A DNA stretch of 64,000 bases from Verpa conica (taxonomy: Eukaryota; Ascomycota; Pezizomycetes; Pezizales; Morchellaceae): positions 2,108,001 to 2,172,000 of the forward strand of contig JAUFSD010000002.1 in NCBI GenBank assembly GCA_033030425.1, in the 5' to 3' direction. The notes beneath the pieces are model-generated. The model was not told the origin of the DNA. It searched no databases and was given only the letters and a program-made list of their open reading frames with translations. Both the position numbers and the translations under genes were made by a program. How positions within the stretch are numbered: the first letter of the stretch is position 1; each line of letters begins with the position of its first letter. This document shows positions 39,648-52,498 of the stretch, one piece after another.

Positions 39648-40309
39648 GAGGAGTAGATGAGGTGGTGAATACTTTGTTAGTAATGGATTTGATTTCTGAG
39701 ATTGTGTTTTGTTTGACTTTTTCTTGCAATGAATGTTTGTAGTATTATTTTTGACTTGTTTTTACTTGTCTACGTGTTTTAAGGATACAATTTTATCATA
39801 TACTACCAAGCGTCTTAAATGTGCTCTTGCGAGTTATTTAGGTTGCTCGTTACTACGAGTAATGCAGAGAAGTATAAATATTGGTCACATGATTTACCTC
39901 TAGCGATTCTGTTCCCACAAAGATAAACCACGTGACCAACATACCTTTCGGCCCCGCTAGTAGACCCTATAAAACTCATTCTTATCCTGGCCCACTTCAA
40001 AGTACTGGAGGCTCACCAAGACACGTCACATTGATTGCTGCAAGGACCCGTGCAAGGACCCTGATGCAAACAGCTGACGAGGCTGAATAGGCCAAGAGTA
40101 TGCAGGAGTTAAGGTTGATTAAAATAATAATGCAGCTAATTACACAATGGTAAGTAGTAATGTCCATAGGCCCGTGCCATAACCCTAAGATAAACATGGC
40201 AACAATACAGACACATAAAACTACAAGCAAAGTTTCAACACACAAAATAGATGCTCATCAATTTTTTCCTCATCTCCTCGCATACAGCCAGGAAGATAAT
40301 GAAAAAAAA
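39648..40309. other. Spacer between PHO8 and U2 3' ends
   Basis: The 3' flanks of two converging transcription units. No further feature was recognised. Confidence 0.4.
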
Positions 40310-40585
40310 GATTCGCGTCGACTGGAGACAGTGCAATACCAGTGACACAGTGGGACCAAAGATGCGCAAGCACAGAGCCTTAGTCCCGAGTTACAAAAAT
40401 AAGTATAATCAATAAATGGTTCCATAGAACCGTTTCAGAGATTAAACTGAAAAGAACAGATACTACACTTGATCTAAGCCACTGTGAGGTTGTTAGCGAG
40501 ATATTCCGATAGAAAGTAATTCCTCTCATGGTGTTGAGGAAAGAGCAAAGGTAGGGTAGAACTTACAAAGGCAAAGAGAGCTGGT
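40310..40585 (-). ncRNA. U2: U2 spliceosomal snRNA with an internal mRNA-type intron
   Basis: U2 pairs with the pre-mRNA branch site in the spliceosome. Read on the minus strand, exon 1 (about 40585-40567) ends CTCTCTTTGCCTTT. Exon 2 begins at 40481 with TGGCTTAGATCAAG, followed by the branch-recognition element GTGTAGTA and TCTGTTC. Joining them recreates the universal GCCTTTTGGC stem-loop I. Downstream landmarks in order: GGTTCTATGGAACC (stem-loop IIb), ATTTTTG Sm site (plus strand 40394-40400), GGGACTAAGG paired with CTTTGGTCCC (III), and ACTGGTATTGCACTG with TCTCCAGT (IV), ending near 40310. Mature length is about 190 nt, usual for U2. The exact 5' and 3' ends are estimates. The gene is oriented against PHO8 and has its own TATA element. 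Confidence 0.95.
40482..40566 (-). other. 85-nt spliceosomal intron inside U2 stem-loop I
   Basis: Donor GTAAGT at 40566-40561, branch-site match GCTAAC with the probable branch A at 40493, and acceptor CACAG ending at 40482. These are the same signals as the protein-coding introns in this window. It interrupts the loop of stem I between GCCTTT and TGGC. Without removal the stem cannot form in its standard shape. Confidence 0.9.
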
Positions 40586-40612: not shown

Positions 40613-40620
40613 TATATATA
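40613..40620 (-). promoter_or_regulatory. TATA box of the U2 snRNA gene
   Basis: TATATATA lies about 28 nt upstream of the inferred U2 5' end, the expected spacing for a Pol II snRNA gene in fungi. Confidence 0.7.
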
Positions 40621-42130
40621 CAACCTGAACACTTGGCGCCCAGCAAAATTTGGCCGCCAGCCCTAGCCCTGCGTCTGAGTTTTTTCGCCGACCACCACTC
40701 ATAACTTGCATCGCCCAGGCTTACCCTAATGCGGGATACCGAGGATTCCTTGCTTCATGAGGACTAGTTGAACTCATAGAGCAATGCATAAGCCTCCCGC
40801 AATAACATCCTGGACAAAGCGATGGGACAATGCATTGCTTCTCTTACATACAAAACTTTCCTATACAGCCAGAGTCGTGATAGAGTGTGCTTATCCTACC
40901 GTTCCACATTTTTAGACTATGGGGAAATGGTCGTTTGAGTGCAGCATACAGCTGTGTCCAGCTATAAGGATCCAGTAAGTTCCGTTTGTTTGATAGCAAG
41001 TCAATTGTGGTAACTTCTACGTGGCAGACTAAAATCGTTTATTATAGCAACATGCGATTATTATTTGAGCTTCATTAATGTAGATATAAGAGGAGAATAG
41101 ATAGGAAATCGGACCACCGGGGGGGGGGGGGTTTAATGCCGTATGGCTTACTAACGTAGTAAATTGGGTTGAAGCTATCTGAGTAATGACGTCTTATTAA
41201 TGAAGCCTCAGTAACATTGAACTTCACTGAGCATCACTCGATCAATAATCAGTCAGGCACTCTGAAATAAGCTACTAATTTCGGCTGTCTAAGTTTACTA
41301 AGTTTACTTTAAAGGCACGGGGTATAACCGGTACGGTATTGACATTTTAGGTAACCTAGAATTGAATTAATTGTATTATAGAGTTTATTAAAATGTAATA
41401 GCTTTTCGATTTATCTCTGAAGCTTCTAATAATCCTACTGTAGTTTTATGTAATGAGTTGATGGCCCAATAAAATAAAGTTCAAATTCACGCTCTAATTA
41501 TCCCGCTAACCTCCAGCTTATGGGGAAACTAGGGGCGCGGGTGTAAGAACGATGGAACACAGTATTATTTACAATAAAGATTTTAGGGGAAGAGAAGGAA
41601 GAAATTCTTGTTTTCTGGATACTACCTATACGTTCTTTAGTACTTATATTTTGATCACTCTTTTTTCTACTTTCGTTCCGTGTTAAACCGTGTTCAGACA
41701 AAACAACCAAACAACCCCAGCAATGCAAGTGGAAATAGAAGGAAACGAAAATGCAAGTATGTAGAAGCCTCATGAACACCGTGCGTCCGCCCCGAAAAGA
41801 AATTGAACTTAAATAAAAGGAAATAAAAAGCATAGCCTGACCCAACACCTGATGCACAACACTTTTTCCTGCTATGGTAAAAATGCTCCTTCACGAAAAA
41901 AAAACTTTTGAGGGGTAAAAACGGAGGTATATGAAGTAAATAGTAAAGGAGAGGAATATTCCAACTAAACGTGACATAGGAAACAGCTTTCCTTGCCTAA
42001 CAAATACTCTGACAATTCAACATCTGAAAAGCCCATAAAGATGAATGGGGGAAAAAGCAATTAAAAACCCGAGTCCAATCCCTGGAAAAATGGTCACAAT
42101 CGCCCCCACCAACCCCCACGCCATTAACCA
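40621..42130. other. Intergenic block between U2 and the sestrin gene 3' end
   Basis: AT-rich, with a G-homopolymer run at about 41119-41131. A minus-strand frame at 41498-41857 is hydrophobic but unrecognised; it probably lies in the 3' untranslated region of the sestrin homologue. No other feature was seen. Confidence 0.35.
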
Positions 42131-51143: not shown

Positions 51144-52498
51144 CTAATCATCAGCCCTCTCATTAATCAATGTCTGCCTCCCCCTCCTCACCCTCTCCCC
51201 TAGGTCTAAATCTCCAGCTTTCCTATTAACCCCGGTCAAGAATTCTCCTTTGCCTCCATATTTACTACTTCTCATCCTCGCCATCTCCTCCTTCTCAAGC
51301 TCTGCCTTCTCCTTCTCTGTGAGCTCCGTCAAGCGCTTTACACGGTCTGCATTCATCTGATCCGCATTACTCTGCATTTCTGCTAGCTTTTTGGCTCGTT
51401 CTGCTGCAGGATCTGCAACGGGAGCAGTTGCGTTATTTGCATGGGCGCGCCATTCGGGTTTACGTCTGGGTTTATTATCCTCACGGGGCGGAGGGGTTGG
51501 AGAGCGACAGCGGGGCGAGAGGGATCGTGGAGGTCTATACGAACTTGCTCCGTTGCGGCGGTCATAAGACGGAGATCTGGTACGTCTACGTTCACGATCG
51601 GGAGAACGACGACGGTAGTCATGACTCTCGCGGCGAGTGGATATTGACTGAGGTGACTCTCTTGGCCTTGAAATGACACTGCGACGGGGGGGGGTTCTTG
51701 ATGGTGAGCGAGAGCGTGATGAGGAATGTCGGCGGCGATGGTAGTGTTTCCTATCATCATCTCTATCTCTCCGGCCGCTCCTCCGGGAGCTCCGATCATC
51801 ATCGCGGTGATTACTCCTTCGTGAATCCCGGTCATCATCGCGGTGGCGATGGCTTCTATGTTTTCTATCTTTATCCTTCTCACGGCTATCTCTGCTCTTC
51901 TCCTTGCTCTTGCCCCCCTCCGCGGCTTCCTTCAACTGCCTCCTCTTTCCAGGATCCTTCATGAAGGCCTCATATGCAGCCTGTTCCTGCCTCTTGATAG
52001 CCAGTAGCGGATCCTCCCTAATCTTATTTGCCGTATCCCTAACCGTATTTGCATTCTGCATAGCCATAAAAGCCTGCTCTGTCGCCTGCTTACTTAATTT
52101 TTCATTATCACTCCCCTTCAGCAGCGAATCGATCCTGCGCTTCCCGAGCAGATATGCTTCCATCTCTTCTGTAGTCCGGTCCATTCCTTGCGAGGGACCA
52201 CTATACAAGAACTCGACACGATCGAGCACCTTCTTCCCCCCGGCAGCCTCCTGTAATTGTCGGAGCTCCTGGAGCTGCCGCTCCTCCTCTCGTTCTTTGC
52301 GCCATTGATCTGTTCGCTTGCGCTCTTCGAGGGCCTTCTTTTCTTCCTGCCAGACACGCTCTTGATTCTTGAGGAGGTGGGGATGCCACGATTTTTTCAA
52401 GTTGAGATCCTAGGGGCGACGGCAATGTGTTAGCTGGGGTGTCAACAGCAGAGCACGGAAAATAGAAGAAAAAGAACAGGTTTACTTACTCCACCCAT
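51144..52498 (-). CDS. CWC25: Pre-mRNA splicing factor CWC25
   Basis: Spliceosomal step-one factor that joins the activated spliceosome and contacts the branch helix. Exon 1 is only 9 nt (52498-52490, ATGGGTGGA), followed by an 80-nt intron with GTAAGT donor and CCTAG acceptor. Exon 2 is 52409-51144, giving 424 aa. The splice yields [20 protein letters not shown], the diagnostic N-terminus of the family. A charged coiled region follows ([20 protein letters not shown]). Then comes the conserved [11 protein letters not shown] and YLLGKRRID block (about 65-100), and a long RS/RD-rich disordered section in the middle. The end contains [17 protein letters not shown] conserved residues. The N-terminal start is firm because MGG is invariant. 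It lies 388 bp downstream of GCD1 on the same strand. Confidence 0.95.

Follow-up and report, generated by a model that had tools for sequence, protein, structure and literature searches.

Introns with major-spliceosome signals in U2 snRNA genes of Verpa conica: an interrupted stem-loop I and its paralogues

The minus strand of the window, the whole stretch of 64,000 nucleotides (64 kb) of Verpa conica DNA analysed here, contains a U2 snRNA gene that is interrupted in stem-loop I. The locus raises the question of whether a gene for a core part of the spliceosome itself needs splicing, how far the interruption is shared by the other U2 genes of the genome and how it may have arisen. Introns in spliceosomal RNAs are rare. 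Where natural evidence is cited for the gain of introns through reverse splicing into an RNA of the spliceosome itself, it comes chiefly from them. With two U2 intron sites, three genes that have the first, two that have the second and an intronless sister in one organism, a single species allows the gain of introns, their precise loss and the reliance of U2 on itself to be tested.

Anatomy of the interrupted U2 gene

The gene in the window (copy A) is interrupted once by a GT-AG intron (Table 1). On the minus strand GCCTTT is followed by GTAAGT...GCTAACAACCTCACAG and then by exon 2, TGGCTTAGATC; from the TATA box on, the reading is ...CCACCAGCTCTCTTTGCCTTT, GTAAGT...CTCGCTAACAACCTCACAG, TGGCTTAGATCAAGTGTAGTATCTGTTC.... 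The original prediction of a U2 gene split by 85 nt with the signals GTAAGT, GCTAAC and CACAG is borne out at 40566-40482, and the junctions it placed at 40567/40481 are exact. In the predicted spliced RNA GCCTTT is joined to TGGCTTAG, and removal of the intron results in GCC-UUUU-GGC, a match to stem-loop I of the Rfam consensus (GCcUUUUgGC), as had been claimed. The start of exon 1 is approximate, and the true 5' end may be a few nucleotides more upstream.

A search with the Rfam U2 covariance model (RF00004), which had been proposed as a check, gives a match at 40493-40307 of 133.3 bits (E 6.2e-27), a score for the unspliced genomic sequence, and no other family match in the 64 kb reaches gathering level. 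Of the unspliced match, the first 12 bases are intronic, model positions 14-18 are deleted and two stem I pairs are non-standard, compared with one non-standard stem I pair in an intronless paralogue (copy D) across the same model positions.

Copy A has the features of a U2 RNA: the exact core, a stem-loop I that closes after intron removal, the U6-pairing segment and GUAGUA. The other U2 landmarks named in advance are present as well. Helices were chosen by eye from the Rfam structure and are completely paired in stems IIa (6/6), IIb (5/5), III (10/10 and 4/4) and IV (5/5 and 6/6), and the Sm site is AUUUUUG. The Rfam structure was preferred because stem IV, a known helix, was missed by RNAalifold with the four spliced sequences as input. 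The view of copy A as a pseudogene was rejected in the light of its helices, Sm site, promoter and 3' hairpin.

Table 1. Coordinates of the U2 gene in the window, its paralogues and other genes mentioned in the text
Feature	Position	Strand	Remarks
Copy A, U2 snRNA gene	window 40310-40582	-	Rfam 133.3 bits (unspliced match); 1 intron
Upstream promoter element	40632..40656	-	CGGCCAAATTTTGCTGGGCGCCAAG; resembles element of U1 genes and other U2 copies
TATA box	40613..40620	-	TATATATA; starts 38 nt upstream of AGCTC; similar placement in U1, U4 and U3 genes
U2 exon 1	40567..40582	-	AGCTCTCTTTGCCTTT; 5' end and 5' half of stem-loop I; based on alignment with intronless copy D
Intron 1 of copy A (A1)	40482..40566	-	85 nt; GTAAGT ... 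GCTAAC (branch A 11 nt from intron end) ... CACAG; same site and signals in B and C
U2 exon 2	40310..40481	-	3' half of stem-loop I, U6-pairing region, branch-recognition GUAGUA, stems IIa and IIb, Sm site AUUUUUG, stems III and IV; based on Rfam U2
Downstream hairpin	40258..40309	-	around CTTCCTGGCTGTATGCGAGGAGATGAGGAA; probable signal for 3'-end processing; counterpart in five U2 copies; 70-nt stretch folds at -27.1 kcal/mol
CWC25-like splicing factor gene	window 51147-52498	-	Pfam E 6.8e-26
Copy B	C16:1073473		Rfam 110.3 bits; 2 introns
Copy C	C10:1538810		Rfam 86.4 bits; 2 introns
Copy D	C13:274893-275094		Rfam 120.4 bits; no intron
Copy E	C13:266858-267082		Rfam 33.9 bits; no intron; looks decayed
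U5 gene	C3:1202542-1202656		no TATA motif in upstream 100 nt
U5 gene	C13:1442549-1442658		no TATA motif in upstream 100 nt

The intron has the characteristics of the major (U2-type) class, with GT-AG ends, a 5' site complementary to U1 and a branch motif near the 3' end. All six U1 matches in the genome begin with ATACTTACCT, which contains the full complement of GTAAGT. The strict motif GTAAGT-N35-90-GCTAAC-N6-14-YAG has one occurrence on both strands of the 64 kb, and this is intron A1; the Markov expectation is 0.175 with a maximum of 1 in 40 runs, and the reversed control gave 0. Two looser intron motifs were not enriched in the window, one being seen 9 times (8.95 expected, 12 in the reversed control) and the other 3 times (2.08 expected, 1 in the reversed control). 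Motif counts in the window are thus uninformative beyond the strictest pattern, and the case is therefore built on exact placement and on comparison with the paralogues.

A CWC25-like splicing factor gene is found about 11 kb from copy A. Its first intron is 80 nt long, comes immediately after ATGGGTGGA and has the form GTAAGT...GCTAAC...TAG. Since the signals are the same, the U2 intron looks like an ordinary intron of this organism.

The U2 gene family and the history of its introns

The search for U2 genes covered the whole genome (45.8 Mb in 25 contigs) and rendered five matches, four of which (A, B, C and D) have an intact core and exceed the Rfam cut-off of 46 bits, while the fifth (E) is decayed in appearance and falls below it. 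The 22-nt U2 core AGATCAAGTGTAGTATCTGTTC was found at four genomic places with up to three mismatches (control 0) and had no match in the viral and prokaryote collections, which are non-fungal. The loop-I intron is present in three of the four core-intact genes (A, B and C), and two of these (B and C) have a further intron in the loop of stem IIa. Neither these sister genes nor the intronless D formed part of the original prediction. Its central proposal, that stem-loop I of a genuine U2 gene contains a spliceosomal intron, agrees with all sequence tests and with the same-site introns of different body in B and C.

Pairwise identity of the mature parts is 94% for A and B, 86% for A and C, 84% for B and C and 76% for D with each of them. 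An intact intronless U2 elsewhere, with copy A untranscribed, had been named beforehand as what would speak against the prediction; half of this is the case in that D exists without an intron, but D has an identity of only 76% with A. A hidden intronless copy of the A type was sought with the junction TTTGCCTTTTGGCTTAGATC and rejected: up to three mismatches gave five places, all with exactly three (control 3) and none at a U2 locus. Copy D, possibly a specialised U2 variant, differs in its Sm-like site of eight U, AUUUUUUUUG, and in the loop of stem IIa, which is altered to UAUAAAAG. Copy E is situated about 8 kb from D in the opposite orientation and retains the promoter motifs and the 3' hairpin.

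All five U2 introns are of the GT-AG type, 67-86 nt long, with the branch motif CTAAC or CTAAT. Intron 1 has an identical position in loop I in all three genes and a length of 85, 67 and 80 nt in A, B and C, respectively. In each of the three it starts with GTAAGT, has the branch A 11 nt from the intron end and matches TGCTAACAACCTCACAG at its end with at most one mismatch. At this level TGCTAACAACCTCACAG occurs in the genome only in copies A, B and C; there are 12 further places at exactly two mismatches, and the reversed pattern is found at 9 places with up to two. Intron 2, at position CAGT^TTAATC in the stem IIa loop, is 68 nt in B and 86 nt in C and reads GTATGT...GAATAG or GTACGT...GCTAATAG between exon CAGT and exon TTAATC. 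The branch motif of the second intron in C is weaker, with two candidates: ACTAAT at 17 nt from the intron end and GCTAAT at just 3 nt. The two introns of B and C enclose a middle exon of just 36 nt, which contains the U6-pairing and the branch-recognition segments.

The ends of intron 1 appear to have been kept among the paralogues while the bodies diverged. This is concluded mainly from the different lengths and from a DNA search with A1 that did not retrieve the first introns of B and C, because a gapped alignment of the three copies gives 72-88% identity over 50-67 paired columns with 13-63 gap columns; some similarity of the bodies may remain.

An unrooted tree of the mature parts separates A and B from C, D and E with a bootstrap value of 77% and joins D and E with 99%; a root between A/B/C and D/E is an assumption. 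The simplest history would be a gain of both introns in the common ancestor of A, B and C, followed by exact loss of intron 2 from A, but the loss in A is uncertain because the branch of A and B has a bootstrap value of only 77%. Possible alternatives would be gene conversion, or that both introns were lost in the line of D and E.

As to how the introns were acquired, an excised intron may have been reverse-spliced into U2 near the catalytic centre and fixed via reverse transcription and recombination, an origin that can be entertained tentatively. The idea was reportedly tied to the introns of U6 and U2 by Tani, Ohshima and Takahashi. It fits that the uninterrupted site at intron 1, CCTTTTGG, has no AGGT for an origin by tandem duplication and that both insertion points in U2 belong to what we take to be the 5' domain used during splicing. 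However, both U6 genes of this genome are intronless, and tolerance of introns close to the cap may explain the position instead. The search for a donor, with A1 and B2 as queries out of the five introns, gave self-matches only, and its sensitivity was so low that A1 was not even linked to the paralogous introns.

Predicted expression, splicing and function of the U2 copies

Upstream of copies A and B, a GGCGCC element is found near -60 and the TATA box near -40, as in U1 genes; C has the variant GGCACC instead. The automatic scan for upstream and downstream motifs was blind for these three copies since their Rfam match begins inside the intron. All three retain the promoter layout of snRNA genes and the downstream hairpin. 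A similar hairpin follows all five U2 copies and was also found in the six genes folded among the eight U1 and U4 genes; in U2 it is probably an RNase III-type 3'-end signal, a reading that we take over by assumption from cases in yeast.

Copy A is very probably one of four core-intact U2 genes whose precursor is transcribed from the snRNA promoter and whose intron is removed by the major spliceosome with U2 that already exists. The standard snRNA promoter would give an intron-containing precursor, the 5' end of U1 (AUACUUACCU) would pair with GUAAGU of the first intron, and GUAGUA of pre-existing U2 would pair with the branch site GCUAAC. Splicing would then join the 5' exon of about 16 nt to the remainder and close stem-loop I, for which the excision would be required. 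Exon 1 is short, but its length is close to that of the first exon of yeast U3, which is known to be spliced. B and C would have to be spliced a second time, in the stem IIa loop, and D could provide U2 without splicing. The sequence itself shows the anatomy of the gene, the signals of the introns, the exact restoration of stem-loop I, the pattern among the paralogues, the promoter and the 3' hairpin. From these we infer the transcription, splicing and function of each U2 copy, as well as any role of D, and A, B and C are most likely working U2 genes spliced by the major spliceosome. A point against this reading is the intronless D, because of which A, B and C might in principle be dispensable.

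As the precursors of A, B and C would need splicing, the supply of such U2 would depend on working spliceosomes. It is rather unlikely that this amounts to feedback control, in which the U2 output of the intron-bearing genes is tied to splicing capacity and D constitutes a splicing-independent minimum. Three of the four core-intact genes have introns and one has none, all in an snRNA-type promoter context, which would suit such control, but neutral gain and loss would leave the same pattern, as in the U3 genes of eight genomes, where copies with and without introns occur together (PMC5832005). It is likewise doubtful that a core part of the spliceosome is supplied through a positive feedback loop; here the U2 pool would come mainly from genes that need U2 for their processing, in a family graded 2/2/1/0 in introns, and the diverged intron-free D would act as a splicing-independent starter.

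The reading of A, B and C as working genes can be compared with the state of the helices. Stems I-top, IIa, IIb, III-top, IV-top and IV-base are fully paired in A, B, C and D. Pairs in which both sides differ from A are found in stem IIb (two in D, one in C), IV-top (one each in C and D) and III-base (one in B). The arms of the base of stem III, set by eye, pair in 10/10 positions in A and B, 9/12 in C and 10/12 in D. The Sm site AUUUUUG is kept in A, B and C, where D has the eight-U site, and the exon sequence in the loop of stem IIa is nearer to the Rfam consensus in these three copies than in D. In copy E pairing is reduced to 4/6 in stem IIa, 4/5 in IIb and 2/4 in III-top, and the branch-recognition box GUAGUA is replaced by GUGUUA; this copy looks decayed. 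That A, B and C are non-functional, with introns that mark decaying genes and with working U2 made by the intronless D (120.4 bits), is highly improbable: a decayed copy does exist in E (33.9 bits), but the pairs lost from its stems IIa, IIb and III show how decay appears in this genome, and A, B and C have mostly complete helices with some changes on both sides, the more consensus-like stem IIa loop, the kept Sm site and splice signals of intron 1 that are fixed in three copies.

Comparison with other interrupted small RNA genes

An intron in the U2 snRNA gene of the basidiomycete yeast Rhodotorula hasegawae was reportedly described by Takahashi et al. in 1993; this gene is said to have one intron just downstream of the region that recognises the branch site. 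A U2 gene with an intron is thus of an already known kind, and the two fungi share an mRNA-type intron within the gene. In V. conica, unlike R. hasegawae, the main intron interrupts the loop of stem-loop I, a second is in the stem IIa loop of two genes and the paralogues differ in intron content. Intron 1 precedes the branch-recognition region and so does not occupy the R. hasegawae-type site; the second intron in B and C follows that region, as the R. hasegawae intron is said to do. The loop-I site, two introns in one U2 gene and the 2/2/1/0 mosaic among paralogues are, to our knowledge, new. Titles and abstracts among the open-licence papers listed contained no earlier report of a U2 intron in an ascomycete, which is no proof that none is in print.

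Matches to other small RNAs in the genome (six U1, two U4, two U5, two U6 and two U3) all span their models from end to end and have no introns, as judged on alignments for U6, U5, U3 and one U4 and from the matches read as sequence for the remainder. The six U1 matches are below the Rfam gathering score (34.1-67.9 versus 69.5) and owe their place in the count to intact 5' ends. Weak matches to U6 (20.3 and 19.5 bits) and U4 (20.2 bits) were left out of the gene counts. A 5.8S search of the genome gave no match, and the rDNA may be missing from the assembly.

U6 genes of Schizosaccharomyces pombe and other fungi have an mRNA-type intron in a spliceosomal RNA that is removed by the spliceosome, according to PMC8917221, in contrast to the two intronless U6 genes found here. 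In 2017 U3 and U6 were described as the sole small structured RNAs in which frequent interruption was known (PMC5832005). The same paper describes fungal U3 introns as cap-proximal, located in the first stem-loop, 92 nt on average and almost all GT-AG, with rare two-intron genes, and as present in the vast majority of the Pezizomycotina analysed. To this extent the U2 introns resemble those of U3 in being cap-proximal in the first stem-loop of a structured RNA, in the copies of mixed content and in the genes with two introns. They differ in that U3 acts outside the spliceosome and in that both U3 matches in V. conica are uninterrupted. The uninterrupted U3 snoRNA is unusual for Pezizomycotina in the light of that paper.

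The small RNA genes also differ in their flanking motifs. A TATA motif within 100 nt upstream is found in 12/12 of the U1, U3 and U4 genes together with U2 copies D and E, versus none of the four U5 and U6 genes, and GTTCG[AG] is found downstream of all four U5 and U6 genes versus 0/15 of the others. U5 may, like U6, be made by RNA polymerase III in this fungus. Both U5 genes have a conserved B-box-like GTTCGAAYC 1-4 nt past the end of the Rfam match, with T runs beyond. A clean split of U5 and U6 promoters from the rest is countered by TTGGCGC upstream of one U5 gene and GGCGCC upstream of one U6 gene. The two U6 genes, both intronless and on contig C17, are identical in their matched sequence and have a B-box-like GTTCG 22-23 nt downstream.
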